This document shows, piece after piece, positions 1-20,900 of a stretch of 56,694 bases of DNA (positions are counted from its first letter, which is position 1; every line of letters starts with the position of its first letter). Source of the stretch: a virus; IMG/VR virus record IMGVR_UViG_3300021375_000032, positions 1 to 56,694 of that record; one strand, given 5' to 3'. The notes beneath the pieces are model-generated. The model was given only the letters and a program-made list of their open reading frames with translations, searched no databases and was not told the DNA's origin. A program made the translations under genes and the position numbers.

Positions 1-353
1 AGATTGGTCGTCATGTGGATACTTTGGTACTCGGGTGTTGCATCACTGCAATAATGGTCTATAACCTTCCCAAAGTATTTATATGCAGTAGGTTCGCCGC
101 CACTAAAGCTAAAGTGAAAGTCAGTAAATCCGTTTGCACGAGCTTGACGTTTTATTTCGTCTATTGTGCGAGTGTAAACTTCTAAGGCTTGATGATCAGG
201 TGTGCTGCTTCTAGCATAGGGCCAGCAGTATGAACAATTATAATTACAGAACCTCGCAAGAATCCAAGACACTGTAAACAAGCCGGTATCCAACAAAGTT
301 TTTTGTCCGAACTTTGTTATGTCCTCAAACGGTATGTTTTGAAAATTGTTCAT
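1..353 (-). CDS. Radical SAM enzyme, C-terminus cut off by window edge
   Basis: The first 117 residues are visible. They carry the radical-SAM cluster motif C-x3-C-x2-C (Cys36, Cys40, Cys43 in CNYNCSYCWP), followed by a SGGEPT motif at about residues 84-89, the usual SAM-contacting GGE element. The enzyme should therefore bind a 4Fe-4S cluster and cleave S-adenosylmethionine to start radical chemistry; the substrate is unknown. Unlike the two other radical-SAM genes in this operon it has no cysteine-bearing N-terminal extension, so it belongs to a different subfamily. The ATG at 353 lies inside the end of the upstream gene (29-nt overlap), with no clear Shine-Dalgarno sequence, suggesting translational coupling. 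The class is certain; the specific function cannot be assigned. Confidence 0.85.
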   Translation of the reverse strand, partial: MNNFQNIPFEDITKFGQKTLLDTGLFTVSWILARFCNYNCSYCWPYARSSTPDHQALEVYTRTIDEIKRQARANGFTDFHFSFSGGEPTAYKYFGKVIDHYCSDATPEYQSIHMTTN

Positions 354-1008
354 ATAACCAATCATAATCGTTTATTTTTTTAAGTGCTTCGATATTGCCT
401 CGACTTGCTATTCCGTAAGCAGACCCTGCTTCTGCGCCTTTAATAGCCCATTCTCCATAAGGACGGTCTTTCCCAACTGTCTGCCAGACATGTAATCGAT
501 GTTCTGTTTCTTCATTTTTCTGCCTATCTATAATCTTACTACTAAGTTTACAACATTCTCTAAATGCACTGCGCCATGTGCTAAACTCGTCTGTGTTAAA
601 TGCTGTAATGTTTGCAATTTCTTCTACAGCGATAAATTTATCACTAATACTTGTAGTCATATCAGGCTTAGATAAATCCATATTCATTGTTAATTTACGA
701 GGAAATAATTTTACTCCCCCATACCCGTATACCAAATCATTAACAGGGTTTTGACTGCGCCATACATGAACATGATCTTGCTGGTGCTCAGGAACTTTAT
801 AATCAAAATTAAAGTCATCGAAGATTATTGCATCTGCATCTACAATCCAACACATTTTAGTAAAGCATTTCTTAGCTGCTCTAATATGTGCTTGGTGTAT
901 TCCGTTAACGCCATGTACACGTTTAGCCATAGGAAATCGAGCTTTTAATAAAGAATAATTAGCGTCTGCACTAGGTTCTTGGTAACTTATGAATACAATA
1001 TCATACAT
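325..1008 (-). CDS. GT-A-like glycosyltransferase family protein, paralogue of the 4631-5548 gene
   Basis: This 227-aa protein aligns along its length with the 305-aa protein at 4631-5548. Shared blocks are an N-terminal YDIxxxSYxEPxAxxNY segment, AKRVHGVxG, a VDxD motif (IVDADA at about residues 55-60), GYGGVKLFPRK, a WRxxFRE segment and VGKDxxxGEWAI. A nucleotide-sugar-like N-terminal strand followed by a DxD motif fits a GT-A fold, in which DxD binds the metal and sugar nucleotide. That is inference from motif layout; I do not recognise a characterised family. It follows the SGNH gene after 12 nt and has its own perfect sigma70-type promoter (1015-1043), whose predicted start site falls on or next to the ATG, with no Shine-Dalgarno sequence. 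It is shorter than its paralogue, lacking about 75 C-terminal residues. Confidence 0.7.
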   Translation of the reverse strand: MYDIVFISYQEPSADANYSLLKARFPMAKRVHGVNGIHQAHIRAAKKCFTKMCWIVDADAIIFDDFNFDYKVPEHQQDHVHVWRSQNPVNDLVYGYGGVKLFPRKLTMNMDLSKPDMTTSISDKFIAVEEIANITAFNTDEFSTWRSAFRECCKLSSKIIDRQKNEETEHRLHVWQTVGKDRPYGEWAIKGAEAGSAYGIASRGNIEALKKINDYDWLYEQFSKHTV

Positions 1009-1014
1009 TACGTT

Positions 1015-1043
1015 ATTATACTACCTATTACTGCTATTGTCAA
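1015..1043 (-). promoter_or_regulatory. Consensus sigma70-type promoter, probably leaderless
   Basis: Read on the minus strand, TTGACA (1043-1038) is followed by exactly 17 nt and then TATAAT (1020-1015), a perfect match to the bacterial housekeeping consensus. Six bases (AACGTA) separate the -10 box from the ATG at 1008, so a normal start site would fall on or within a base or two of the A of the start codon. No Shine-Dalgarno sequence lies at usual spacing. The -35 box sits in the end of the SGNH gene. Confidence 0.75.
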
Positions 1044-1827
1044 TTAATTTATAGCACGCATTTGCAAGCCAATTATGGGCAGCAACACCAGGATGTGATC
1101 CGTCTCTAGCCGGGGGGTCGGGCAGATTCCATAAAGTTGGATTGTCAGTAACATTAAGTAAATAGTCGTTAAAAGTATGCTTATCCCAAGTCATCCAGTG
1201 TATAGTTGTTCCATACTGCTTTGCTACTACATTCGCCCAATCAATATAATCTGTAGCATAACACGCCGAAACGTCTTCTGTAAACACACTAAATATCTGT
1301 TTATGCCGTTTTTTACTTATTATCCCGTAATGATTTACAAGGACAGTATTATAGTGCCATCTCTCAGAATGTGTATGATACTCTGGAAGAAATATCCTGC
1401 CAGGAGGCGGAAGTATTATGAATGCATCACTAACAGGATGAAGTCTAATAAAGGAAGTAAATACCTTTATTATATTTGCTATTGAAGACCCTGGCATACC
1501 TAGATTAGGAATATTTGGTATATTTAATCTTTTTGCAAGTAATTCAGAAGCTGGAGTGTTAACACCAATGCCAAAAGTACAACTACATCCAAAAAATGCA
1601 GGGGACTTTTCAAATGTCCATTCACCGCCACGAAACCCGTGTTTGTTAATATGATACTCCCACGGATCTTTTTTATAATCAATCTCTGGCTCATTATAAA
1701 GGTACGGTGTTGAGTATGATTCGCCTACACGGTTTAACAGCATACTTGAATGGTGAATGCCGTGATTATGTTTATATAACTGATCTATTTTTATTTTTGA
1801 TGATTGTATTTGAGAATATTTATTCAT
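1021..1827 (-). CDS. SGNH/GDSL-type hydrolase (putative esterase or acyltransferase-like)
   Basis: This 268-aa protein shows the SGNH family landmarks. Block I is FFGCSCTFG with the likely nucleophile Ser82, a block II-like NLGMPGSS lies at 108-114, and block V is RDGSHPG with Asp242 and His245 completing the triad. The usual block III GxND is not obvious; a PPPGR segment lies in that position. SGNH enzymes commonly remove or transfer acyl groups on sugars, so next to glycosyltransferase-like genes a role in O-acyl modification of a glycan is reasonable inference. There is no signal peptide, suggesting action in the infected cell. Its ATG overlaps the upstream radical-SAM gene by 8 nt. The fold is fairly sure; the substrate is unknown. 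Confidence 0.75.
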   Translation of the reverse strand: MNKYSQIQSSKIKIDQLYKHNHGIHHSSMLLNRVGESYSTPYLYNEPEIDYKKDPWEYHINKHGFRGGEWTFEKSPAFFGCSCTFGIGVNTPASELLAKRLNIPNIPNLGMPGSSIANIIKVFTSFIRLHPVSDAFIILPPPGRIFLPEYHTHSERWHYNTVLVNHYGIISKKRHKQIFSVFTEDVSACYATDYIDWANVVAKQYGTTIHWMTWDKHTFNDYLLNVTDNPTLWNLPDPPARDGSHPGVAAHNWLANACYKLIDNSSNR

Positions 1828-3268
1828 ATGTCGCTAGTTCTTTGTCAATATTTTTAGGATCAGGAGTTAATACCCATCCTTCTTTTTCTGCAAGTTCTGT
1901 AATACTTGCATCAGTATCTGGAATACTTTCTACCCAATCTGTTAGTATCTTAGGAAATACACTTAGGCTTTTATTTCTACGAACATCATATTGTGCATAA
2001 AATGTTTTAAAGTCACGCCATAGTGTAACTGGATTACTTGTTCTACGGTGTGGAGCATCTACCGTAACAAGATAATCAATTAGTCGTTCAATACTTGCTT
2101 TTTCAAATTCACTCCATCCAATATCGTTTTTATGTTCTTGATACCAAGTAGATAATTGCTTATGACAATGATCTTTAATATGATTAGGCAATGCTAACGG
2201 ACTTTGAAAACTTGGAAACCTTAACAAGTTTAAGCTTACTGACGGAGTTCTACTTTGTGTAAGTTCTTTTAATTTGTATACTTCATCTAAAAAGTCTGTA
2301 ATACTAAATAGGCAAAGACTATTAATAGTCATCATAATATGCACGCCTTTATAGTTTGCTTCTGTTAATACACGTTTAATATTAGATAACCACTGTTCAT
2401 AATCTAATCCATCACGAATATACTCTGCTTGAGCACCTACTGCTTCACAGCTTGTATACAATTCGAAGTTCTTCATGCCTTGAGTTTTTTCAATTAATTT
2501 GTCTATAATACTTTCTTTAGCAATAAGGTTACTATTAATTGCAAATCTCATGTCCGAATCTTGATTATTAAACCAGTCAAATAACTTCCAAGTATTTGCA
2601 CTCATCATGGGTTCGCCGCCTGTGATGCGCAATTCTTCTAAACTATCTGATAGACCGCTATCCCACCATTTCCAAAATGCTTGAATATAAGGATTATCTT
2701 CGTCATTATCATAAGGCTGTGTCCACGAACCGTCTTGCTGAAAGGCACCCGCGCCGTCACTTACAAGATTAGTATAATTACCATTCTTTTTAATATCTTT
2801 TGCCCATGTAGTACTAAAACTTGCATTACAATAACTACAAGCTAAATTACATGTTCTGTCAAACGCAATTTCAAATGTTTTTAAATTAACATTTGCATGA
2901 TGATCCATATCGTATGCACGTTGTAATTCTTCGTCGGAATAGATAATACTTTTAAAAGTCCTGTCACTAACTGCGTCGTTTTTCATATCTTCCATTTTCC
3001 AGCAGTATTCGCACTCAGCTGGGCGTTCACCGTTCTGCATCATGCGGCGCATTTCTTTTTTGTGCTTAGTATTATGAATAGCGGTGTAATCTTCTTCAAC
3101 TTCTACTAATGGAATTTTGTGAGCAGGCGGGTGATGACAACTGGCCGTAGTGCCGCTTCCGAGCCAGGTAGTAGCATTAAACCACTTAGCACCGCAAAAG
3201 CTTGTACTTTTGCTGTCTATTACCCGATTTCTATATTGCTGTAGACTTTCGTCAGGCTTCTTTGGCAT
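1820..3268 (-). CDS. Twitch-domain radical SAM protein (copy 1)
   Basis: This 482-aa enzyme has a radical-SAM cluster motif CNLACSYC (Cys140, Cys144, Cys147) and RITGGEP at 214-220. Before the SAM domain lies an extension with four cysteines, Cys25, Cys44 (SCHHPPAHKIP), Cys86 and Cys89 (ECEYCWKMED), which resembles the N-terminal twitch region of the class annotated as N-twitch radical SAM proteins and probably binds an auxiliary Fe-S cluster. All four positions are identical in number to those of the neighbouring 460-aa paralogue. The reaction is unknown; relatives occur in phages and bacteria without assigned function. The start overlaps the upstream gene by 17 nt, so the two copies are likely co-translated. 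A gene duplication is the simplest origin. Confidence 0.85.
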   Translation of the reverse strand: MPKKPDESLQQYRNRVIDSKSTSFCGAKWFNATTWLGSGTTASCHHPPAHKIPLVEVEEDYTAIHNTKHKKEMRRMMQNGERPAECEYCWKMEDMKNDAVSDRTFKSIIYSDEELQRAYDMDHHANVNLKTFEIAFDRTCNLACSYCNASFSTTWAKDIKKNGNYTNLVSDGAGAFQQDGSWTQPYDNDEDNPYIQAFWKWWDSGLSDSLEELRITGGEPMMSANTWKLFDWFNNQDSDMRFAINSNLIAKESIIDKLIEKTQGMKNFELYTSCEAVGAQAEYIRDGLDYEQWLSNIKRVLTEANYKGVHIMMTINSLCLFSITDFLDEVYKLKELTQSRTPSVSLNLLRFPSFQSPLALPNHIKDHCHKQLSTWYQEHKNDIGWSEFEKASIERLIDYLVTVDAPHRRTSNPVTLWRDFKTFYAQYDVRRNKSLSVFPKILTDWVESIPDTDASITELAEKEGWVLTPDPKNIDKELATYE

Positions 3269-4634
3269 TCCATTCCTCTAATAAGTTGGCAAACTCCGGA
3301 AAAGTTTGGCTAAAATTTTTGTTTCTTCTTTTATCGTATGCGTGTATATATCTTACAAAATCTTGACGATGTTCAGTTGCTGGCTTAGTGTTGCGTAAAT
3401 ATTCGCAAAGTCGGTTTATTTGATCGTACTCTTCTAAATAAATTCTGGCATATTTTTCTGGACTATAATACTTTAACCAATTTTTACAAGTTAGCTCAAT
3501 TGAATTAGCTATTTCTGTACGAGTTTTTTTATCTAATAATGTACACTGAAGATGGGGCGGCCAATGCATTATATTAATACTAAGTGGTATTCTATTCCAC
3601 TCAAAGCTATTATTATAGATTTTACGCAAATCCATAACTGCTGTAATAAACTCAACAAATGTTGTTAGACTTAAAATATTAACTGTAGTCATAATAGCAA
3701 CTGTACTGTTTGTTTCTTTAAGAAATCTTTGTATGTTTTTAAGCCAAACATTATAATTTAATCCGTCACGAGCATATTCAGCTTGTTCACTAATACTTTC
3801 TAAACTGGTGTAGATATCAACTTTTACGCCAACTACTGAAAGAGCATTAACCTTTTCAATTAGTTTATCTATTAGTTTATCTTCGACACAACCATTTGTG
3901 TTTATAGCAATGTCTAAATCTTTACGAGGATGCTCAATAAGATAATCTAATAGTTTCCAAGTATCTTTTGACATAGTAGGCTCGCCGCCTGTAATACGTA
4001 ACACTTTTAAATACGGCAATGCATCAGGAAACCATTTCCAAAAGGCTTCTACATACGGATTATAGTCTCTGTTTCGATATGGCATTTTGCCAGACTGTTC
4101 TAAATAATTTAAATCATGTGCGCCGTGTTCAGTTGGATAAGGACCGTTTTGTTTTACATCTTCCATCCATTTACTGCTAATCTCAGGCGAACAATATGCA
4201 CATGCAAAGTTACATGCATTGCTAAAACTAACTTCTAAATAACTTGGGTATACATTGTCTTGCGGATTGCTTTTTGCAATATCTTCAAATCTATCCCATG
4301 CCCATGTGTCGCTTGTTTTATAATGTCTGTCACTAAAGTAATTTTTATCTAAGTCTTCAATCTTCCAACAGTATCCACATTCGCTAGGACGTTCTCCATT
4401 AAGCATCTTAGCACGTTGTGCTTTTTTAAATTGACTGTTGTGTAATGCAGCAGGATCTGTTGCAATTTCTTCTAATGGTATTTTGTGCGGTGCCGGATGG
4501 TGACAACTGTGATTGTATCCATTTTGAAGCATAAGTGTAGTTTGTAGCCATTTAGCCGTACAAAAACTACAACTTACGTTGTTAATTTTTTCACGCTTTT
4601 CTTTAAGTATTTGGATACGCTGTTCGTTGCTCAT
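3252..4634 (-). CDS. Twitch-domain radical SAM protein (copy 2)
   Basis: This 460-aa paralogue of the gene at 1820-3268 has cluster cysteines Cys141, Cys145 and Cys148 (CNFACAYC), RITGGEP at 213-219, and the same N-terminal cysteines Cys25, Cys44 (SCHHPAPHKIP), Cys86 and Cys89 (ECGYCWKIED). It also shares a YNPYVEAFWKW-like block before GGEP. The pair is diverged across the rest of the length, so the copies may act on different substrates or form a heterodimer; both are inference. The start ATG shares an ATGA overlap with the stop of the glycosyltransferase-like gene upstream. The function is unknown beyond the radical-SAM class. Confidence 0.85.
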   Translation of the reverse strand: MSNEQRIQILKEKREKINNVSCSFCTAKWLQTTLMLQNGYNHSCHHPAPHKIPLEEIATDPAALHNSQFKKAQRAKMLNGERPSECGYCWKIEDLDKNYFSDRHYKTSDTWAWDRFEDIAKSNPQDNVYPSYLEVSFSNACNFACAYCSPEISSKWMEDVKQNGPYPTEHGAHDLNYLEQSGKMPYRNRDYNPYVEAFWKWFPDALPYLKVLRITGGEPTMSKDTWKLLDYLIEHPRKDLDIAINTNGCVEDKLIDKLIEKVNALSVVGVKVDIYTSLESISEQAEYARDGLNYNVWLKNIQRFLKETNSTVAIMTTVNILSLTTFVEFITAVMDLRKIYNNSFEWNRIPLSINIMHWPPHLQCTLLDKKTRTEIANSIELTCKNWLKYYSPEKYARIYLEEYDQINRLCEYLRNTKPATEHRQDFVRYIHAYDKRRNKNFSQTFPEFANLLEEWNAKEA

Positions 4635-5548
4635 AACTTTTCTATAAACCTTTGATGATCAGTTCTCGAAGGATGCTGATATACTGATTTAAAGAATTTA
4701 CTTTGTTGTGCATCAAGTGGTTGTTCTGCGATAGGAATATCTAGTTGATCAATTAATTTAATACCATATTCTTCGATTTCGTAATCAACATCTTCAATTG
4801 ACTCAAAAGAAACTTTCCATAAATCATTTAGATACTTAAAGTCTCGAACTTGAATGTAATCCCAGTCAGTACACATAGTCATGTACAATCCTGCTCTTGT
4901 TCCAAGTATAGCCCAGTCACCGTTTTCTATATCTTTGCCCACCATACTCCATATGTACAGCCAGTGCAAGCAGCGCCAGTGATTGTTTTTTAGTTCTTCT
5001 TTCGAAATTCTTACGCCGCGATCAGTTGCAAGTTTAACACCTTCTCTAAATCCTGCTCGCCATGCTTGTGCAGGAGTTTCATTATTGTACACATCGCTAT
5101 AACAACTGTTCATTTGAATATATTGTGCATCCCAGCAAAAGTCTACTTGAGCATGAGCATTATTAGGATCTGCATTTTCGTGTGTGCGCATATTAAGAAC
5201 GTATTTTTTAGGCCAACATTTTAGTCCGCCGTTGCCGTACATTAAACCATTAATCTCATTTCTGCCGCACCAGCTAATTACAGTATTTTGTAAATCTGCG
5301 TGTTCATCAAAATCAATTTCTTGATTTAGAAATTCTTCGCGTATGCGATTGTCGCCGTCTACTGTAATAAAGCGTTCTGTTTCACTTAATTCTGCGCAGG
5401 CTTTGTGTGCTGCATCTGATCCTTCTACTCCGTGTACACGCTTTGCCCAAGGTACCTTTTTACATAAGTCAGCATAGTTTTTTTCAGCATTAGGCTCGTC
5501 GTAACTAAGATAAATGATATCGTAATCGATTGGTTTAAATTTTGTCAT
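4631..5548 (-). CDS. GT-A-like glycosyltransferase family protein
   Basis: This is the longer (305-aa) paralogue of the 325-1008 gene. It opens with a strand-like YDIIYLSYDEPNAEKNY and AKRVHGVEG, and carries TVDGDN at about 72-77 as a likely metal/nucleotide-sugar DxD motif. It shares YGNGGLKCWPKK, AWRAGFREG and VGKDIENGDWAI with the paralogue. The extra C-terminal 75 residues are acidic and not recognised. Position between an unknown 311-aa protein and the two twitch radical-SAM genes, with 1-nt and 4-nt overlaps, makes it part of one transcript. Glycosyl transfer is inferred from fold-level motifs; acceptor and donor are unknown. Confidence 0.7.
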   Translation of the reverse strand: MTKFKPIDYDIIYLSYDEPNAEKNYADLCKKVPWAKRVHGVEGSDAAHKACAELSETERFITVDGDNRIREEFLNQEIDFDEHADLQNTVISWCGRNEINGLMYGNGGLKCWPKKYVLNMRTHENADPNNAHAQVDFCWDAQYIQMNSCYSDVYNNETPAQAWRAGFREGVKLATDRGVRISKEELKNNHWRCLHWLYIWSMVGKDIENGDWAILGTRAGLYMTMCTDWDYIQVRDFKYLNDLWKVSFESIEDVDYEIEEYGIKLIDQLDIPIAEQPLDAQQSKFFKSVYQHPSRTDHQRFIEKL

Positions 5549-6483
5549 TATATAATCTCGTGTGCATAGTTTTCAAAATATTTTGCTGTATATATACTTA
5601 CATTGTTAGCATCATGTTCTACATCATATATGAACGGAATAGTTGGCGAAGATTCCATAACTAAATCACCTACAGTAAATTCTAAACTTCTATAAAATAT
5701 ATTAGGATCGTGTTTAGCAGTAATACTAAAATAAAGTGTTTCTTTAGGATTATACCCGCTCATACGTAAGAATTTTTTAGTATGAATATTAAGTGAAATT
5801 CTCCAAACACCATCATTGGTATTTTGTCGTATAATAATATCATATTTTTCGTTATTAGAAACAGGTTCGAAATCAAACACAAATATACTATTATTTTTTA
5901 GAATCAAATCTCCAATATCTATTGTATTATCTATTTTTAGTTCTTTATTTTCATCACTGAGCAATTTTACATTTTTGACAATAAGTTCTGCATTGTCTAT
6001 ATTAAATTTAGTATTTGCAGGTTGATCTTTTATTACTTTGTAAACATTGTTATTTTTCCAAACATGCTGACCTGCAAGATGAAATAATTCGTCATACCAT
6101 ACATCAATATGCATACCGACATATTGAGGGGTTAGTATTTGTCGTTTAGTAAAATCATCTATGTATTCTCTAATATCAAGCATCGGTAACTGATAACACA
6201 TTGTGTCTGCGGTTTTAAACGTATCATCATATGCAACTTCTTTTAATCGTAGCTGTTTTAAACTAACATCATATGCAATTACAAATTCGTCTGTGCGTCT
6301 TTCTCCTGTAAGAATAGGCTTAACTTCGTTAGTTTCAATTTCAAAAACTTCAAAACCCTCTTCAGCAATATTTTTTGAACTAATCTTATGTATTTTGCCA
6401 TTTTCTTTGTTGTAATATACATAAGATTGAGTACTTGCAGGGACTGTACTAAGTCGATTAATTAATGATTGTAAATCAGACAT
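5548..6483 (-). CDS. Conserved accessory protein of unknown function
   Basis: This 311-aa protein has no motif that I recognise. It has no signal peptide, membrane segment or cysteine cluster; it is rich in beta-strand-like alternation and acidic/asparagine residues, and includes a histidine/tryptophan patch (DVWYDELFHLAGQHVW) near residues 128-143. The start ATG overlaps the upstream glycosyltransferase-like gene by 8 nt, and its TAA overlaps the next ATG by one base. Tight packing inside the radical-SAM/glycosyltransferase operon suggests a shared process, perhaps as substrate or accessory subunit, but this is only context. A structural prediction would be the most useful next evidence. Confidence 0.6.
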   Translation of the reverse strand: MSDLQSLINRLSTVPASTQSYVYYNKENGKIHKISSKNIAEEGFEVFEIETNEVKPILTGERRTDEFVIAYDVSLKQLRLKEVAYDDTFKTADTMCYQLPMLDIREYIDDFTKRQILTPQYVGMHIDVWYDELFHLAGQHVWKNNNVYKVIKDQPANTKFNIDNAELIVKNVKLLSDENKELKIDNTIDIGDLILKNNSIFVFDFEPVSNNEKYDIIIRQNTNDGVWRISLNIHTKKFLRMSGYNPKETLYFSITAKHDPNIFYRSLEFTVGDLVMESSPTIPFIYDVEHDANNVSIYTAKYFENYAHEII

Positions 6484-7318
6484 TTATTAGACTCCTGTGT
6501 CTTTCTAATACTGGTGATTTTTCTATAAAATCTTTTTCTGTATAATGCAGTATTCCAGTTTGGGCATAATTACCAATTTTTATGCTTCCGTCTTTAGATA
6601 CATAAACGCCTACTTGATCCTGCCAGCTTGATTGCACATTTGTCCATCCTTGACAATGAGGCTTCATATGTGTAAAACTTGGAAATTTTGCAATTTTGTT
6701 TGTAATAGTAGATTCGCAATCTAATATACGTGTTACAATAGCAGCACATACATCTATACTTACATGTTTAGGACGAGTCGATCCTTCTAGATGCTGTTCA
6801 TAAAATGCTTCCCAATTGTTAACTACTAATTCTAACCAATTATAAAACTCTTGAGCAAAATCACATTTTTTAAAATAGTGAAATCCACTAAACAAGTTAG
6901 GTAACTTGTTTTCTATAAATGTTTTTCTATAGTAACTGGTGTCTGCACGTTCGCCTCTGTAATTTAATACATTGCTAGCGAAAAACATTTCATACTTAGA
7001 CAAAAATTTCCACCATGTATCAATATTTTGCAATATTAACATGTCAGTATCCATTACAATTGTTTCATCGTATGGAGTTGCGTGGTATAATTTCCAACGA
7101 TTTTCAACTTTCCAGTCTGAATTTTCAGCACTGTCATTAAACGGAATAGGAATAATTTTATCAAACAATTTTTTATATTCATCTGGCACGTTATCGTTTG
7201 TAACAATACTAATAGGTACACTGTTATGTACTTGCAAACTCATTGCTAATACGCATGCTTGTTCTACATAATTGTCTGTTGTGTTATTTTGGGCAAGAAC
7301 TACAATTCCTTTAGTCAT
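6476..7318 (-). CDS. GT-A-like glycosyltransferase (copy 2 of a tandem pair)
   Basis: Translated from the ATG at 7318 this is 280 aa. A longer reading would need a TTG at 7336, but the ATG gives the same MTKG opening as the neighbouring paralogue and has an AAGAG sequence 7 nt upstream, so I prefer it. The protein has an N-terminal Rossmann-like strand, PISIVTND, a FDKIIPIPF segment and the motif YDETIVMDTDMLI, where DTD is the expected metal/sugar-nucleotide site of GT-A enzymes. A CxxGW-like patch (HCQGWTN) lies near residue 222. The ATG sits inside the upstream stop region as ATGACTAA, an 8-nt overlap repeated at the next junction upstream. Confidence 0.75.
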   Translation of the reverse strand: MTKGIVVLAQNNTTDNYVEQACVLAMSLQVHNSVPISIVTNDNVPDEYKKLFDKIIPIPFNDSAENSDWKVENRWKLYHATPYDETIVMDTDMLILQNIDTWWKFLSKYEMFFASNVLNYRGERADTSYYRKTFIENKLPNLFSGFHYFKKCDFAQEFYNWLELVVNNWEAFYEQHLEGSTRPKHVSIDVCAAIVTRILDCESTITNKIAKFPSFTHMKPHCQGWTNVQSSWQDQVGVYVSKDGSIKIGNYAQTGILHYTEKDFIEKSPVLERHRSLINV

Positions 7319-8162
7319 CTGCAAACTCTTTATCAATTATTCTATTAAGGCTAATTTTATTCATTACATGAATACTTTGTCCTGATGTTTTTAATGCTGT
7401 ATACTCACCTAAATAGTCTTTCTTTTCTACTAAAAACATCATATCATCGCCGTTTAATTGCCATAGTACATCTTTATCAATAGTATACATCATACTTCCT
7501 GGTAAATCTTGTACAAAATTTCCGTTTTGAAATCCGTTCATAATATGTATAGCAATACTAAAAGCAAAATCATTTCTAAATAAACTGGATGTTATTTGAT
7601 AAACACGTCTATAATGATTCCATTCATCTTCGATATGTTTTATAAGATCAAAGAAAACTTTGTTTGTTTGTGTTTTTCTAAAATACACAACGGTTGCCCA
7701 GTAAAACTCAACACTAGTATTACTAATAAATTCAAATTCATCCTCTTCTCTAACCTTTGCAATATCATCTGACTGTCTATATAACATAAGATTAGATTTA
7801 GATTCAAAACATGATTTTAATAAGTCGTTTGATATAATGTAATCTGTATCCATTAGCAGTGTTTCGTCATAGGGCGAAAGATCATAAACGCTTGCTCTAT
7901 TACTGTTTTTAAAATTAGCGGTCTTTTTAGATAAACTACCGTCAAAGAAATATCGAGTATTTGTTCCTTTAGAATATTCTAAAGGAATAATTTTATCAAA
8001 ATCCTTAGTACCAAACGTATCTGTCAAATAGTCTACACTATCGGTAGCAATAGTTACAGGCATACCAAGATGATTTTTTATTCTTCTTGCCAGAAACACT
8101 GCTTGTTTTACATAGTCTATAAAACCGTTATTTTTTGCAATTAAAAATACACCCTTAGTCAT
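7311..8162 (-). CDS. GT-A-like glycosyltransferase (copy 1 of a tandem pair)
   Basis: This 283-aa paralogue of the gene at 6476-7318 shares MTKGVFLIAKNN, PVTIATD, FDKIIPLEY and YDETLLMDTDYII (DTD metal motif). The ATG at 8162 is preferred over the TTG at 8168 because it matches the paralogue and forms the same ATGACTAA overlap with the preceding stop codon. Conservation is strongest in the nucleotide-binding half; the C-terminal halves differ, as expected if the two enzymes use different acceptors. It probably acts in the infected-cell cytoplasm because there is no signal peptide. The target, whether host glycan, phage fibre or DNA, cannot be told from sequence. Confidence 0.75.
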   Translation of the reverse strand: MTKGVFLIAKNNGFIDYVKQAVFLARRIKNHLGMPVTIATDSVDYLTDTFGTKDFDKIIPLEYSKGTNTRYFFDGSLSKKTANFKNSNRASVYDLSPYDETLLMDTDYIISNDLLKSCFESKSNLMLYRQSDDIAKVREEDEFEFISNTSVEFYWATVVYFRKTQTNKVFFDLIKHIEDEWNHYRRVYQITSSLFRNDFAFSIAIHIMNGFQNGNFVQDLPGSMMYTIDKDVLWQLNGDDMMFLVEKKDYLGEYTALKTSGQSIHVMNKISLNRIIDKEFADD

Positions 8163-8505
8163 AATCAACTAATTTCTCTATACTTCTGTTCTTTTTTAAA
8201 TTTACATACGCTGTGTGATATGTGTTAGATGCAGAAGCATATTGATTTAAAATTTCGCCATAAAAATTATCTAAATCATGTACTAAGCAAGGAATATTAT
8301 TGTCATCTACAAGTACAACTTCATCTTGATCTGCTGATACCATTACACTTACAAATGTAATTAATTCACGAGTAATCGTAAACTGTGATCCACTGTAAAA
8401 ATAAATTAATGATTCTTGATATTTTTCTGCTAACAATCTTTTTTGAGTGTTAAGTGTCAACATATAATTAGAAAAGTCTAGTGCTTTTTCTAAACGCTCA
8501 TCCAT
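8155..8505 (-). CDS. Small conserved phage protein, first gene of the accessory operon
   Basis: This 116-aa protein of unknown function appears largely helical, with an N-terminal amphipathic segment (MDERLEKALDFSNYML), a central strand-like stretch (ITRELITFVSVMV, then EVVLVDDNNIPCLV) and a charged helix near the end. No catalytic motif is visible. It is the promoter-proximal gene of the 8505-to-1 operon, with AGGAG placed 7 nt before the ATG and a consensus sigma70-type promoter just upstream. Its stop overlaps the first glycosyltransferase gene by 8 nt. I have an impression of similar small proteins near tail-fibre genes in marine myophages but cannot name a family. Confidence 0.65.
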   Translation of the reverse strand: MDERLEKALDFSNYMLTLNTQKRLLAEKYQESLIYFYSGSQFTITRELITFVSVMVSADQDEVVLVDDNNIPCLVHDLDNFYGEILNQYASASNTYHTAYVNLKKNRSIEKLVDYD

Positions 8506-8531
8506 AGTTAAACTCCTAGTTTATTACTAGT

Positions 8532-8560
8532 AGTATATATTAGATTTAACGTATTGTCAA
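8532..8560 (-). promoter_or_regulatory. Sigma70-type promoter of the accessory operon
   Basis: On the minus strand TTGACA (8560-8555), an exact 17-nt spacer and TATACT (8537-8532) precede the 116-aa gene. The predicted start site near 8525 leaves a leader of about 20 nt containing AGGAG. The -35 and -10 hexamers and spacing are identical to those before gp47 (46146-46174). This gives the operon an early-type promoter separate from the late tail-fibre genes directly upstream. Confidence 0.75.
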
Positions 8561-8571
8561 GAGCAGACTGG

Positions 8572-10809
8572 TTATGGATTTACCTGAACACTTGCGCCTG
8601 CTGATCCGCCAGCTGTTGATATACTAGCATTCCATGTACCAACTATACCCAATGTACTTGATACACTGCCAGAAAGATCACTGGAAGGAATAGTGCCGCC
8701 ATCTGGCCCTGTAATAATTACACTTGCTGATGATGCTCCATTAGCATTCCAAGATATAGTATACACTGTACTATTAATAGTTCCAGAGCTTGGTGTAAAG
8801 CTAATACTAGGGGGCGGTATTACAGGAGGGGGCGGTGGAGGAGAACTTACTGTTACTGATGCAGATGCGCTTCCGCCACTAGTATCAATTGTTGCACTCC
8901 ATGTGCCGACTATGCCTAATGTACTCGATGCAGACCCGCTTGCATCAGTAGTATTATATGTCGGTCCTTCTGGAGAATTTAATGTAACTGTTCTCGATCC
9001 TGCGCCAGCATCATCCCATGATAGTGTATAAATTGTATCATTGATATATCCAGAACTCGGTGTAAAGCTAATGCTCGGATCTGCTGGTCTTGCAGTTCCT
9101 GACCAACTTCTAGAGAACGACTCTGTACTGCTATAAAATAAGAACGAGCCGGTGCCGGTGCCAATTGTTAATGGTTCAATGCCAAGGATAACCGAACGAC
9201 TCTGGCCGGCGCTCATTGAGAAAGAAGTTGATGCTCCTGGACTACTTATTCCGTCTACGGATACACTCCACTGACTAGGTCTACTTGTTTCTTGAACTAT
9301 AATCGATCCGCTTCCACTGTTGCAAGTTACTGTATATGCATAGCTAACAGTGCCTTGAGATATCGGTATATTAAAGTTCATGTCAGAAGCAGGACTGACC
9401 GAGAAAGTAAATCCTGCAGGAGTTGGACCCGGAGACGGACTCGGATCTGGTGGCGGAGTTGGTGGCGGAGTTGGTGCAGGTGTTGTGCTAGTATCACCAA
9501 TATTAACAATGCCGCTAGTTGCTAGTATTTCTCCAGAAACTGAACCCGATCGTAAACTAATTGAAAAACTTTCAACTCCTTCTGTTGCTAAGTCATTGCT
9601 AAGTGTTCGTGTAATTGTACCGGCATTGTTATTAATAGTAACTGTACCAGATGTTACTCCATCAGTAAAATCTAAGCCAGTTGGCTGGCTGCTGGATACT
9701 GCATTTGTTGACCAATATAATGTTGTAGAGTTTGAAACATTAGTAGTTGTAATTGTAAATGACGCATTTGCACCTTCGTTAGCGTTTGCAGGTCCGCTAA
9801 TATTATAACTCGGTGTAATAACACCTGATAATGTTCTTATGGTTGCTCCTACTGGCGGAGAATCAATAATAACTGCATCATGTACTGTTCCGTTAATAGA
9901 TATTTGACTGCTAGGAGTTGCTGTTGATATACTACTATTAAATGTACCAAATACTGCTTCATCAATTCCATAAGTAAGATCATTAGGAAGTCCGTCTGTA
10001 AACTCTACTTTAAATTTTATAGCAGATGTACCATCTAATGTTGTTTCATTAGTAGCATATATGTTATAACTATTACGAGAATAAACCGCGCCGCCGGTTG
10101 TAGAATAAACTAATTGATATGTTGAATTAAGATCATAATTTCCTATACTAGATCCAGAACCAATTCCTGCATTATTAACTGTTGATTCTGCCTTGAAACT
10201 AGTTGTTCCCATAATGTTTAATATTGTTTGCCAGTCTACTGTTTTAGCTTGACTTCCTGTATAATCAACCGATGCACCAAACCGAATTTCGCCGCCGGCG
10301 TTAAAAAAATGTCTCCTATCAAGGACAGACGGAAATGTTACTGTAAAAATATGACTAAGTGTTCCATTCCATGAACCCGAACTTGCGGGACGGGTACTGC
10401 TTGCTTCTGGTAAACTAGCTATAGTTAAGTTAGCAGGAGCAACAATTAATCTATCAGTATCAATACTAGTTGCTAATGATTCTAATCCTAAAATATATGC
10501 TTCTTCAATTTTATCAGCAGTTGCAGTATTAGCTTCGTAATCACCGATTACAAATTCGTCAATAGCAACCGATGCTCCAACTTGATGTGAACGTGTCCTA
10601 ATTAAATCAATATATAAATCTTCGTAGTCTTGTGCAGAAACTTTATCTGCATTAGCAAGATCATTTGCTGCACGAGAACCAACCACACTGTTTGTACTAA
10701 ATGGTTGGCCGTAGCCGTAAGTGGCAGAAATATCAGCAGAAGTGCCAAGTACTAAATTTACTTGATTTCTAAGTGTGTTATATCTACTTGCTAATATAGT
10801 TACTGACAT
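8572..10809 (-). CDS. Tail-fibre/adhesin protein with Calx-beta-like and Ig-like domains
   Basis: This 745-aa protein has an N-terminal 300 residues that match the 307-aa protein at 10871-11794: helical start, RSHQVG, SGSWNGTLSH, RRHFFNAGGEIRFGA, DWQ and SSIGNYDLNSTYQ. After this come a Calx-beta-like stretch (about 340-430), a Pro/Thr/Ser linker (about 441-466), a beta domain of about 100 residues, and two tandem Ig-like repeats (about 575-650 and 665-745) separated by a poly-proline linker. Both repeats share SISFTPSSGxINxTxYTxSW and STLGIVGTWxAxIxTxGGSA. The architecture suggests a surface adhesin attached by the common N-terminal module. It has its own late-type promoter. Annotation as fibre rests on domain style and neighbours. 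Confidence 0.75.
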   Translation of the reverse strand: MSVTILASRYNTLRNQVNLVLGTSADISATYGYGQPFSTNSVVGSRAANDLANADKVSAQDYEDLYIDLIRTRSHQVGASVAIDEFVIGDYEANTATADKIEEAYILGLESLATSIDTDRLIVAPANLTIASLPEASSTRPASSGSWNGTLSHIFTVTFPSVLDRRHFFNAGGEIRFGASVDYTGSQAKTVDWQTILNIMGTTSFKAESTVNNAGIGSGSSIGNYDLNSTYQLVYSTTGGAVYSRNSYNIYATNETTLDGTSAIKFKVEFTDGLPNDLTYGIDEAVFGTFNSSISTATPSSQISINGTVHDAVIIDSPPVGATIRTLSGVITPSYNISGPANANEGANASFTITTTNVSNSTTLYWSTNAVSSSQPTGLDFTDGVTSGTVTINNNAGTITRTLSNDLATEGVESFSISLRSGSVSGEILATSGIVNIGDTSTTPAPTPPPTPPPDPSPSPGPTPAGFTFSVSPASDMNFNIPISQGTVSYAYTVTCNSGSGSIIVQETSRPSQWSVSVDGISSPGASTSFSMSAGQSRSVILGIEPLTIGTGTGSFLFYSSTESFSRSWSGTARPADPSISFTPSSGYINDTIYTLSWDDAGAGSRTVTLNSPEGPTYNTTDASGSASSTLGIVGTWSATIDTSGGSASASVTVSSPPPPPPVIPPPSISFTPSSGTINSTVYTISWNANGASSASVIITGPDGGTIPSSDLSGSVSSTLGIVGTWNASISTAGGSAGASVQVNP
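8575..9085 (-). repeat. Two tandem Ig-like domain repeats
   Basis: Two repeat units of about 240 nt, starting roughly 267 nt apart, encode the end of the 745-aa fibre. DNA similarity is still visible, for example around 8632-8665 against 8900-8932 (CCATGTRCCRACTATRCC core). This implies a duplication followed by divergence. Repeated Ig-like folds are common at phage surface-binding tips. Confidence 0.7.
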
Positions 10810-10833: not shown

Positions 10834-10841
10834 TATTTATT
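10834..10841 (-). promoter_or_regulatory. Late-type -10 element (AATAAATA)
   Basis: The minus-strand octamer AATAAATA differs at one position from the T4 late element TATAAATA and lies 25 nt before the ATG at 10809, in the 61-nt gap before the 745-aa fibre gene. No -35 hexamer is present, as expected for gp55-dependent promoters. Confidence 0.55.
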
Positions 10842-11803: not shown

Positions 11804-13291
11804 TTAAACTTTTAGTACACATTCTACTAGTTTTTCGCCCTCATCACTATTGCTTTCGAGTGCAACACCGACTAAACTTCCTCCGTTAATTGCTGTGCTT
11901 GCACAACCGTTATCATTAACATAAACTTCTTGCCCTTTTTTAACTGCACCTATAACACGAACTGGTAAACGCCCTTTAAGACCAATGTATTGACCTTCTG
12001 CTTCACTGTTCATCATCACAGCAGGATCAGTTGATACAACACCAATTGCAATTGTACCTACACTTGCTGCTTCAACTTCGTGATCTTCGTGTGCGCACAC
12101 TGTAACTACTGTTCCAGGTGCTAGTTCTTCTGCTGTAGAATACTTTTCTGCTAAGTCAGCATAACGTGCTTGTGTTGCTGTACCTTGGAACAAGTTTGCA
12201 GCAATTGATCCAGTTGCATCTCTAACTGCAACTGTATTATTAGTTGCACTAGCACTTGCACTACGGAAATCACTACCTACTCTTAGTGTAGAAGCTTTAG
12301 ACGCTTCGCCTGTAAAGTTAGCAGCATAAACATTTGACCATCCTAGACTAGCACTACCTAATGTAAATGTGTTGTCTGCTGCTGGTACAACTCCAGTTGA
12401 TGTAACTGTGCCAACATGTGTTAGTACGCCTGCGCCGCTAGTAACTTTTAGTTTAATGGTGCCATTATTAGTAATATTTTGTATAATACCGTCAAAACCG
12501 TTGTCATCAATCTTTATTTGTAGATCTTGTGATGCGCCTATTAGTATTCCGTCATCTGTTTGGGTTTCAATTGCACTTGTAAATATAGTGTTGCCTACGC
12601 CTGTTTGTACAAAGTTTGCTGCTGCAACTCCACCTAGCTTTTCAGCATTAGTAGCAGTTCCGTGGAATCTATCAGTTGTACTTGTGACGCCAGCTGTGGC
12701 TAGTTTAGTATTTCTTAGGGTAATGCCTTTATTAATTCTATCAAAGCCTTGTGATATAAGTGACGACTCACTAGCATTTAAATCAAACGTAGAAAGACTT
12801 ACAACATAAGTTGTTTCGTCCTCAATAACAGCAGCAATTATTCCTCTTGTTGTACTTGTAGTATCAAGAACTTCTAGGCTTTGCATTTGGGTTACACCTT
12901 CGCCTGCGTTCTGTGGTCCTATAAGTACAAAGTTTGTACCGTTGTATACATATAATTGATCGTTGCCACTGTCCCACCAAAAGTCGCCATTGGCTAAACC
13001 GGTTGGCTCTGCTGCTCCGATTTCTGCGCCGCCTGTTGTGCGCCACTGTGTGCCATCGTAAAATTTTAATTTACTTGTTCCGCTATCAAACCATACTTGA
13101 CCACTAATTGGTCTTGCTGGCTGATTTGCTCCGCTAAAGTTTTCTAACAAAAACAAGAAGTTTTCGTTTTGTATTTCACCGTACCCTGCGTAGTTTTTAC
13201 CGATGAATTTTAGGTCAGTTGTTTGATCAACTGTTCCATCTTCCACTGTGGTTAGCAGTGTGTTGTTATATCTGTCTATTGAATAAGCCAT
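11804..13291 (-). CDS. Tail-fibre protein with C-terminal YADLAEKY domain
   Basis: This 495-aa protein has an N-terminal block shared with the 636- and 684-aa proteins: YAGYGEIQNENFLFLLENF, GQVWFD, LKFYDGTQWRTTGG, GDFWWD and a LYVYNG segment, two WYDG-type repeats typical of marine phage fibres. The middle is a repetitive beta-rich shaft. The C-terminus starts with YADLAEKYS, then PGTVVTV, GVVSTDPAVMMNS and LKGRLPVRVIG, resembling the fibre C-terminal domains annotated as peptidase-G2-like; self-cleavage is not shown here. It is first in its transcription unit behind a GATAAATA element. It is likely a receptor-binding fibre. Confidence 0.75.
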   Translation of the reverse strand: MAYSIDRYNNTLLTTVEDGTVDQTTDLKFIGKNYAGYGEIQNENFLFLLENFSGANQPARPISGQVWFDSGTSKLKFYDGTQWRTTGGAEIGAAEPTGLANGDFWWDSGNDQLYVYNGTNFVLIGPQNAGEGVTQMQSLEVLDTTSTTRGIIAAVIEDETTYVVSLSTFDLNASESSLISQGFDRINKGITLRNTKLATAGVTSTTDRFHGTATNAEKLGGVAAANFVQTGVGNTIFTSAIETQTDDGILIGASQDLQIKIDDNGFDGIIQNITNNGTIKLKVTSGAGVLTHVGTVTSTGVVPAADNTFTLGSASLGWSNVYAANFTGEASKASTLRVGSDFRSASASATNNTVAVRDATGSIAANLFQGTATQARYADLAEKYSTAEELAPGTVVTVCAHEDHEVEAASVGTIAIGVVSTDPAVMMNSEAEGQYIGLKGRLPVRVIGAVKKGQEVYVNDNGCASTAINGGSLVGVALESNSDEGEKLVECVLKV

Positions 13292-13321: not shown

Positions 13322-13329
13322 TATTTATC
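13322..13329 (-). promoter_or_regulatory. Late-type -10 element (GATAAATA)
   Basis: The minus-strand GATAAATA is one base from the T4 late consensus and sits in the 42-nt gap upstream of the 495-aa fibre gene, about 30 nt before its ATG. The same octamer occurs before the gp6 gene at 36855-36862, which supports a functional motif. Confidence 0.55.
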
Positions 13330-17934: not shown

Positions 17935-17942
17935 TATTTATT
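17935..17942 (-). promoter_or_regulatory. Late-type -10 element (AATAAATA) overlapping a stop codon
   Basis: The minus-strand AATAAATA spans the TAA stop (17940-17938) of the giant structural gene and lies 20 nt before the ATG at 17915. An AGGAAA ribosome-binding sequence sits between. The placement suggests a separate late transcript for the 200-aa protein and the two fibres behind it. Confidence 0.5.
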
Positions 17943-20900
17943 CAGGTAGCTCGGATGTTCCGGCACGTACGAATCTTGCAATTGAATTTTCTGTATCACC
18001 TAGTGCTGTACCTAGTATTGTCCAACTTTGTCCTACTTTCTTAACAACTGTTACTCGTGTATCTTTTGCAGGAGTAGTAAGTAATGTAATTTCATTTGTA
18101 TCTGCGTTAAATGTAAAGTCTGCTGCAACTGATGTATCGCCGTCTGGACTATCTAATGCTGTTGCATAGTTAAACACATCTAGTGCCGTCTTACGCATAC
18201 GCACACCGCCTACAAACACTTCAATCTCATTAATCGATGCTACTGGGTAACCAATCTCAAACGTTGCTGTAAGACCGTCTGCTCCTATTTTTTTAGTTCC
18301 ATCCTCTACATAAGATGCATTATAAGATAAAATTTGATCTTTATACGGAACAGTTTTACTTATGTTTTGATCAAATACTTTTGTATCTGTTGCATATGTA
18401 TCTTTAACACCAGTACCTAATGTACCTCTGCGTAGTTGACGTAGCGTGTTTTCTTCTTTTACAAAGTATTCAATACGCTCGCCTTCAATAAAGATCACAC
18501 CAGGTAAGTTTTGACCTTTGTTTGGTTCTGATAATTCACTTGCATCGTCTAGTTCAATTCTTAAATCATAATAATTTAATGATTGTGCTAATTTAGCAGC
18601 AGATTTATCAAGACGTTTGAAATGTGTTCTATTAAGCATGTCTTTAAATTGTCTATAAGAAAATTTAGGCTTGCTAACTGGTGCTGTAAAATGTATAATA
18701 TCAATAACATCATTTGCTGCCGGCTGTCTAACTAGTTGTACTTTTAACTTGTCGTCAGTTACAGAATAGTCTACGCTAGGTGTTAATAGTTCACCGTTTA
18801 CACTTACCCATACATACTGTGCATCAACTGCTGGTTTACGTAATGTAACTTCGCCAACTGTTAATCTGTTATAGGTAATATAATCAACATCTTCAGGTAT
18901 TAGTGTTGTTCTCGATACAACATCGTAATTAATACGTTCAATTCCTAATAAGTCGTGATTTGCAAATTGTATTATTTCTACTACTGCACCGTTGATAGGA
19001 GCAGTATCTAAAGTAATACTTTTACCATTGATTCTATAATCGCCGTCAGTAATTACATACATTTCAATTAAATTACCCGGAATACCAACATCGTCAGTAA
19101 GAGTTATACTACTATTAGCTATTTCAAATCGCCAATCTAAAGGAGTAAATTTCTCTTCTCCATTTAAGAAAATTTTAACATCTGCAACATCTAAACTACC
19201 TTGCGGCATTTGGAATATTTCTAATGGATACTCTCTTTGATTGTTTTCAGGTATTGTATACTGAATATTATATCCTGCATTTAATATTTTATTGTCAACT
19301 TTAACTATTATATTATGCTCACTCGGAATCGCATAAAGTGGCGCACTTGCAAGTGTAAACTCTCTAGTAGATCCGTCTCCTGTAAATACGTCTTTGGTAA
19401 TTTGACTATAATTAATTTGTTCATCTGCTGAAAATACAGTATAATTAATTACAGCACCGTTTAATACTACTTCCTCAAATCTAATAACAGTTTTAGATGT
19501 AGTGTCTGATTTAAATGCTACAACTGTTTGTTGTACTCCATTAATGCTTGCATACACGCTTGCATTTTCTTCCCAGTCAACTGTTGTTTCAAACTCTGTA
19601 GTTGAACCATCACCAACAAGTTGTCCAAAGTCTAATATATTTTGTATACCTTGGGAAACTGTTACAATATTAAGCTCGGCGCCTACAACTGCTGTATCAA
19701 GTGTTACGGTATTTGCACTCCAATTAATAGTGTACTCAGTTTGTGGAAGTATAATATTATTAACTTTTACAATAACTGCATCACTACTATTTGGTGTAAC
19801 ACCTAAATCATAAGTTACAGTACTGTCCATAATATAACTTTGGCTGTTAATCACTCCTTGTCCTTGGCTATCTCTTGTGTACACTTTAATATCTAGTGTA
19901 TCAAGGACTTGTCCAGGAACAACTTCTTCAGGACCGGCGCTTGTAGTTGGAGTAACAAATCCGTCACCGTCAACAATAATTTCTTCTGCTGCTATACCAC
20001 GTGCTGTTGTATATGCTAAGTCGCCGCCTGTTAGCGCAGTATCATAACTTTCTGCATCAGGAAGAACGCTACCGTCACTTGTTGTTTTTCTTACAACAAA
20101 TACATCATTGTCTAATAATTCTATTCCCAAATCCTGCACATAAACAATGTCTGTAACGCCGTCACCTGTAATGCTGTTTGTAATAGCATACACGTTTGTC
20201 GGAGTTCCTGCATCATAATTAGGATCATCAATTCTTACACCGTTTTTATATAAGTTATAAACAACACCATCTTCTAAAGGAGCACTTAATTGTACTGCAA
20301 TAGTCGAGCCGTCTGCTGTAAATACCTCGTCTTCAAATGTGTCGTCGAACTCGTCCCAGTTATCTGTGTACCATGGCAGACTATCAAACCCACTTGGACT
20401 CGAGAAGTCAAAACTGCGTACTTCAACACCGCCGTAATCTACACCAGTCATTAACTGTGCCAAGTCGTTGCCGTACATTCCTGCAATCGGATTGTAAGCA
20501 AATTTAATTCTGTCTTCTGCATTTAACATGCTTAACGGAATATTGTACTCAACACGTATTACAGAGTTAAGCTTAGGAGGCGTTGCAAATAATATTTTAC
20601 CTTGTTCTCTTACATAAGATTTATCTGTGTTTTTAATATTCTCAAATGTATATTTGCTACGCAATTGTAAAATATTATCTACGTAAACATTAACTTTTTT
20701 AATGTCAAGATCCATTGGCCATTCAAGGAAGAATCTATTTTCAAATCCTGTTCCTGTAAATGTTTCTGTTTTAGCTAATGTATCAAAAGTGAATGTTCCG
20801 CTAGTTCTGTCAAACTTAATTTTAATACTCGGCGTTCTTACAACACCGTTACCCAGTACTGCTGTTGCTCTCGCAGGAGTACCTGTTTCTACTTGTGAGC

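Follow-up and report, generated by a model that had tools for sequence, protein, structure and literature searches.

The closest described counterpart of the locus reported here is the host-recognition cluster of pelagimyophages, T4-like marine phages in which fiber genes stand beside GT8-type glycosyltransferases and in which two related genomes differ by cassettes of radical S-adenosylmethionine (radical-SAM) genes (Zaragoza-Solas et al., 2020; PMC7029224). Modification of the host O-chain was proposed for that cluster, and the detection of middle and late promoters failed in these phages (PMC7029224). Here we analyze the 56,694-base viral record IMGVR_UViG_3300021375_000032, which comprises no further contigs and is called the window below, and within it a ten-gene operon that combines radical-SAM enzymes with glycosyltransferase (GT)-like proteins. 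The operon is a locus of the pelagimyophage kind, sharing fibers, GTs and radical-SAM cassettes in a T4-like phage, but it belongs to another lineage and additionally shows a fixed frame formed by two GT genes (GTc and GTd), a sigma-70 promoter of its own, and counterparts in bacteria. In being aware of no defined function for such a gene set, an earlier sequence-only reading of this DNA was therefore partly outdated. Within the literature searched, we saw no previous description of such an early promoter, of a GTc/GTd frame, of the bacterial module or of the protein fusions. We modestly favor the interpretation that the operon encodes a phage pathway which is expressed early and remodels the surface glycan of the infected cell, probably the lipopolysaccharide (LPS) core or O-chain.

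The operon lies on the minus strand and runs from position 8505 to the left window edge, beyond which it extends, the window being only a fragment (56.7 kb) of a viral genome. From the promoter, the gene order is U116, GTa, GTb, U311, GTc, rS1, rS2, SGNH, GTd and a truncated rS3 (Table 1). Each junction overlaps or nearly touches, with overlaps of 8, 8, 8, 1, 4, 17 and 8 nucleotides (nt) followed by a 12-nt gap and a 29-nt overlap; these values, which assume internal ATG starts for GTa (8162), GTb (7318) and rS3 (353), were all reproduced from the open reading frames (ORFs). Elsewhere the window encodes T4-type genes, including a late sigma factor, an SbcCD pair, baseplate proteins and a portal. 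The portal and baseplate proteins are nearest to those of the jumbo phages Atu_ph07, Phosso and PA5oct (47-50% and ~35% identity, respectively), and by these similarities the source is an uncultured marine relative of those phages, part of the T4 superfamily. The Moraphage lineage (PMC12619734) was also weighed as the phage group, and nothing was found in its favor.

Among cultured phages, rS1 finds matches only in Vibrio phages K566 and K567, which have in common with the operon twitch radical-SAM genes accompanied by GT8 genes. The jumbo phage K566 offers an independent case: among its four twitch radical-SAM proteins are interspersed two GT8 proteins (E = 8e-8 and 2.5e-12) and a weakly GT4-like protein, and a few genes away lies a homolog of LpxC, an enzyme of lipid A synthesis (L231:22336-23142; PF03331, E = 1.3e-40). 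The Vibrio phages differ from the operon in that their proteins are only ~25% identical, LpxC stands alongside, and GTc and GTd were not found; tblastn recovered no GTa, GTb, GTc or GTd homolog from cultured phages. The K566 record names a neighboring gene PagP, which Pfam did not confirm.

All three radical-SAM assignments of the sequence-only reading hold. The rS1 and rS2 proteins (460 and 482 amino acids, 39% identical) score 335.1 and 301.4 bits against NF033640 (N_Twi_rSAM), exceeding its curated cut-off of 170 by a wide margin, and the CxxxCxxC motif is kept in 216 of 216 members of the rS1/rS2 community. We know of no reaction assigned to this family. The truncated rS3 matches PF04055 at 2e-12, and the fragment scores 26.8 bits against NF033640; it probably belongs to a different radical-SAM group from rS1 and rS2. 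In relatives the full-length protein has ~330 amino acids, and one relative (L066) carries an rS3 that is 93% identical. Identification of rS3 as a viperin found no support, as the N-terminal radical-SAM part alone matches (E = 3e-10; 40 bits for the fragment against a cut-off of 180). Each of several long relatives (contigs of 123-201 kb) has five to nine proteins that pass the N_Twi_rSAM cut-off, and its radical-SAM matches number 11-14.

The four GT-like proteins likewise form the DxD pairs that had been proposed, being two sets of paralogs (GTa/GTb at 30% and GTc/GTd at 35% identity). A nucleotide-sugar site is consistent with retention of the DxD motif in relatives, in 116 of 116 GTa, 113 of 114 GTb, 116 of 116 GTc (as VD[GA]D) and 60 of 61 GTd proteins. 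A joint GTa/GTb profile matches glycogenin (GT8) at E = 7.6e-6 over ~110 of 284 positions; this similarity and the conserved DxD are shared with glycogenin, but the match is weak and partial, and no single window protein sequence matches Pfam GT8. GTc and GTd have no sequence match in Pfam, NCBIfam, PHROG or PDB. An AlphaFold (AF2) model of GTc (pLDDT 87.7, pTM 0.88) retrieved 11 PDB matches at E<=0.001 with Foldseek, all of them glycosyltransferases with low TM-scores (0.22-0.39), the best and still weak match being a GT active on the PBCV-1 capsid. We therefore predict, from a fold modeled for GTc alone of the pair, that GTc and GTd are GT-A fold glycosyltransferases of an unnamed family that would bind and transfer sugars.

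For the remaining proteins the evidence is more varied. The SGNH protein (268 amino acids) carries a serine block (GCSCTFGIG) and a DxxH block (DGSHPG), present in 18 and 20 of 21 community members, respectively, and its proposed esterase-like nature is borne out by these motifs, on which the assignment rests, but not by family models: no Pfam lipase or SGNH model was above cut-off, and DUF6473 alone matched, below cut-off. U116 has no match in the family libraries searched, including Pfam. U311 is modular, its homologs ranging from 185 to 461 amino acids through zero to two inserted repeats per protein in the alignment, and three homologs have repeats that resemble CBM_5_12 below cut-off (E = 0.017-0.048). 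U311 has no reliable match in PDB, and the fold matches in BFVD (AF2 model, pLDDT 84, pTM 0.44) are uncharacterized phage proteins. The earlier suggestion that U116 and U311 serve as substrate or scaffold found no positive support.

Promoter sequences separate the operon from the fibers. The operon is headed by a sigma-70 type promoter and has a second one before GTd (Table 1), so that it is not simply a unit running on from the fiber genes. Sites of this type matching at least 10 of 12 positions precede U116 in 94% of 70 unique relatives versus 5% of shuffles, figures tempered by shuffles that keep base composition only and by the statistical non-independence of the relatives, and precede GTd in 64% of 39 GTd relatives. 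Across the loci, U116 follows 106 of 238 strong sigma-70 sites, and genes of the GTc/GTd family follow 48; no such conserved site was seen in relatives before GTa, GTb, U311, GTc, the radical-SAM genes or the fibers. Within the window, the other well-placed strong sites lie ahead of the genes for the late sigma factor and SbcD. Conversely, the T4-type late motif ATAAATA, located 18-43 nt before structural genes and found in the window before baseplate, fiber and adhesin genes, precedes fib495 in 58 of 58 relatives and U116 in 0 of 68, and late-promoter control of the operon was rejected on that ground; the exact motif TATAAATA showed no overall enrichment. By its sequence signals the operon stands outside the fiber transcription unit with a promoter class of its own, and by analogy with T4 it is probably expressed early. 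In many relatives the -10 element and start region of the U116 promoter are overlapped by inverted repeats such as AGTATATAATTACTAATATACT (window 8505-8550); the repeat over the -10 element is mildly enriched (45% versus 17%) and is possibly an operator.

Two scans of viral contigs yielded 142 loci, some sharing a contig; these were chosen by homology to rS1 or GTc, which biases the co-occurrence of those two genes, the remaining genes not having been selected for. Rather than being scattered, the genes keep strict synteny: U116-GTa-GTb is contiguous in 117 of 118 GTa loci, the order U116-GTa-GTb-U311-GTc is fixed in related uncultured phages, and fiber genes lie upstream in the same order. 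The interval between GTc and GTd is variable, with 24 cassette contents among the 61 loci having both ends and zero to five radical-SAM genes. Cassettes in relatives encode SGNH proteins of several families, UDP-glucose/GDP-mannose dehydrogenase, epimerase, DegT aminotransferase and hexapeptide transferase, and a carbamoyltransferase is encoded among the genes flanking cassettes. The exchange is seen most directly in locus L003, which is 95-99% identical to the window across 13 kb and has an SGNH allele of 45% identity followed by two extra genes, one of them radical-SAM. The operon resembles O-antigen and capsule loci in its constant flanks, its swapped sugar-tailoring genes and its sharp exchange point, which falls at a start codon; it differs in being phage-borne and led by radical-SAM enzymes, with no Wzx or Wzy seen. 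Four further loci (L041, L043, L050 and L059) represent a second phage lineage, in which one protein is 34% identical to a protein of Pelagibacter phage Mosig; they combine rS1/rS2-type genes with desaturase, aspartyl hydroxylase, GNAT, methyltransferase and UDP-glucose dehydrogenase genes and have no GTa or GTb. A strong sigma-70 site heads the radical-SAM operon of this L041-type lineage too.

Bacterial genomes were scanned with a GTc/GTd profile. Some contigs of metagenome-assembled genomes (MAGs) look phage-derived and have the same synteny (e.g., L145-L148, L150-L152 and L154). On chromosomal contigs of Bdellovibrionota, GTc and GTd are found close to rS3, a methyltransferase and two further radical-SAM enzymes, one of twitch type and one SPASM-like. 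Among 144 Bdellovibrionota genomes, GTc occurs in 9, rS3 in 9 and both in 8 (hypergeometric p ~2e-11, phylogeny ignored). The twitch enzyme is present in 8 genomes, the methyltransferase in 12 and the remaining radical-SAM family in 11, of which 9 reach E<1e-100; the core families co-occur in about 10. One genome encodes GTd, rS3, the twitch enzyme and GTc consecutively, with gaps of ~10, 10 and 180 bases. The Bdellovibrionota rS3 orthologs are ~50-55% identical to the phage rS3 family, and GT2 genes adjoin several of the modules. Fusion proteins join GTc to GTd and radical-SAM to GTd, the latter exemplified by a 635-amino-acid protein of an Oligoflexia MAG (L177/L221; radical-SAM domain 8-381, GTd domain 400-629). 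We found no paper on Bdellovibrio radical-SAM/glycosyltransferase loci. Elsewhere, Rhodobacteraceae chromosomes (L168, L170 and L173) encode a C-terminally extended GTc domain in the vicinity of glycosyltransferases and a caspase-like/Sel1-repeat protein, and Photorhabdus genomes (L174-L176) a GTc/GTd-family protein amid GT2/GT4-like and transporter-like genes.

Taken together, the early promoter class, the sugar-nucleotide enzymes, the cassette exchange within a fixed frame, the bacterial copies and the LpxC neighbor point to remodeling of a cell-surface glycan, and of the three targets considered earlier (host surface glycan, phage fibers or a small molecule) they favor the first. In the mechanism we propose, all protein functions being putative, GTa/GTb and GTc/GTd would transfer sugars, while the radical-SAM enzymes and the SGNH hydrolase would make or tailor unusual ones, as would the nucleotide-sugar dehydrogenase, epimerase, aminotransferase, acyltransferase, carbamoyltransferase and methyltransferase of relatives. 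Exchange of the genes between GTc and GTd among phages would let each phage write a different glycan. The benefit would likely be that receptors are masked, both from competing phages and from the phage's own progeny, which could otherwise be lost on debris, and the location beside the fibers would mirror a coupled evolution of receptor binding and receptor alteration; sugar substrates, cellular target, infection timing and benefit are all postulated here. That the genes form one pathway is supported by synteny in diverged relatives, co-occurrence in Bdellovibrionota and the fusions, but calling it complete, as had been done, is too strong because cassette content varies between phages and the operon continues beyond the window. 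It is also tentatively possible, though we hold this with less confidence, that GTc, GTd, the twitch and SPASM-type radical-SAM enzymes, rS3 and the methyltransferase constitute one undescribed biosynthetic module, common to jumbo-type phages of the sea and to scattered Bdellovibrionota, for making a radical-modified cell-surface sugar, and that from this module the phages built a fast-changing, early-switched variant that rewrites the host surface.

Several observations, besides the limits on the promoter statistics given above, weigh against host-surface remodeling. The fiber genes directly adjoin the operon, and late read-through into it is possible because no terminator separates it from the adhesin gene; its promoter class is itself a prediction. 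Genes for a polymerase, flippase or ligase were not seen in its vicinity. GTa and GTb were not found in the bacterial copies, in a search that had no positive control, and the phage pathway is to that extent not identical to the bacterial one.

The main rival explanation is that the operon glycosylates the phage's own fibers or adhesins, the radical-SAM enzymes acting on side chains or sugars, thereby altering receptor binding or shielding the virion. The constant position directly downstream of the fiber genes, the uninterrupted passage from fiber gene to operon, the restriction of GTa/GTb to phages among the copies searched and the PBCV-1 capsid GT as best fold match of GTc would all suit such a role. 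However, the fibers and the operon have different promoter classes, the GTc/GTd/radical-SAM/methyltransferase core occurs in bacteria that have no phage fibers, and the cassettes contain genes for nucleotide-sugar synthesis, and we therefore consider decoration of the fibers unlikely, and less likely than remodeling of the host surface.

Two other products were weighed. Many characterized SPASM/twitch enzymes act on peptides, and many peptide maturases appear among the weak NCBIfam matches, which would fit a peptide-derived product resembling ribosomally synthesized and post-translationally modified peptides, or a small molecule, in which SPASM/twitch enzymes modify a precursor and GTs glycosylate it, as in mycofactocin. 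We regard this as improbable, since no ORF of at least 45 amino acids recurs in the bacterial modules (shorter precursors could be missed), no exporter or peptidase was seen, and the cassettes hold sugar-nucleotide enzymes. Hypermodification of phage DNA with glycans against host nucleases appears very improbable. It would agree with the early-type promoter, as phage DNA-modifying GTs are made before late genes and phage GTs can glycosylate DNA (cited in PMC12619734), but not with the location beside the fibers, the strong variability, the bacterial chromosomal copies or the LpxC neighbor in K566. Of six virus records searched, one contained the thymidylate synthase family, which was indistinguishable from ThyA.

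Table 1. Positions in the window of the operon genes, their promoters and neighboring features.
Feature	Position	Strand	Basis or remark
U116, 116-aa protein, first operon gene	8155..8505	-	no family match
GTa, GT8-like GT-A glycosyltransferase (predicted)	7311..8162	-	start ATG 8162 or TTG 8168; glycogenin profile match
GTb, GTa paralog	6476..7318	-	start ATG 7318 or TTG 7336; PHROG 1903 E=4e-6
U311, modular beta-rich protein, variable CBM5/12-resembling inserts	5548..6483	-	homolog alignment, AF2 model
GTc, predicted GT-A fold, unnamed family, fixed left cassette flank	4631..5548	-	AF2 + Foldseek, VD[GA]D
rS1, twitch-domain radical-SAM enzyme, CNFACAYC	3252..4634	-	NF033640 335 bits
rS2, twitch-domain radical-SAM enzyme, CNLACSYC	1820..3268	-	NF033640 301 bits
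SGNH-type hydrolase or acyltransferase (putative), 268 aa	1021..1827	-	motifs GCSCTFGIG + DGSHPG
GTd, GTc paralog, fixed right cassette flank	325..1008	-	35% identity to GTc
rS3, third radical-SAM enzyme, CNYNCSYC, cut by contig end	3..365	-	PF04055 E=2e-12
Sigma-70 type promoter TTGACA-N17-TATACT, operon head	8532..8560	-	11/12 match; 27 nt before U116
Second sigma-70 type promoter TTGACA-N17-TATAAT, before GTd	1015..1043	-	12/12 match
Exchange point	1009..1561	.	blastn vs L003: homology ends 1561, returns at GTd start codon 1008
Fiber/adhesin-like gene upstream of operon, 745 aa, outside operon	8572..10809	-	own ATAAATA at 10834-10840
Fiber gene fib495, context	11804-13291	-	late motif ATAAATA at 13322..13328

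The adhesin-like protein upstream of the operon has a C-terminal part of 417 amino acids (window 8574-9863) with Pro/Thr/Ser-rich linkers and immunoglobulin-like repeats; in the near-identical locus L003 the gene stops after 328 amino acids, without this part. The structural region also holds one ORF of 5134 amino acids (window 17938-33342).

These marine viruses are rich in twitch radical-SAM enzymes, and the fixed core, the fusion partner GTd, the bacterial counterparts and the lpxC-associated set of K566 turn their presence into a testable hypothesis of glycan modification. If true, some widespread marine phages would reprogram the surface of their hosts through a hypervariable carbohydrate chemistry, which would bear on superinfection exclusion and on the coevolution of phages and hosts in the ocean.

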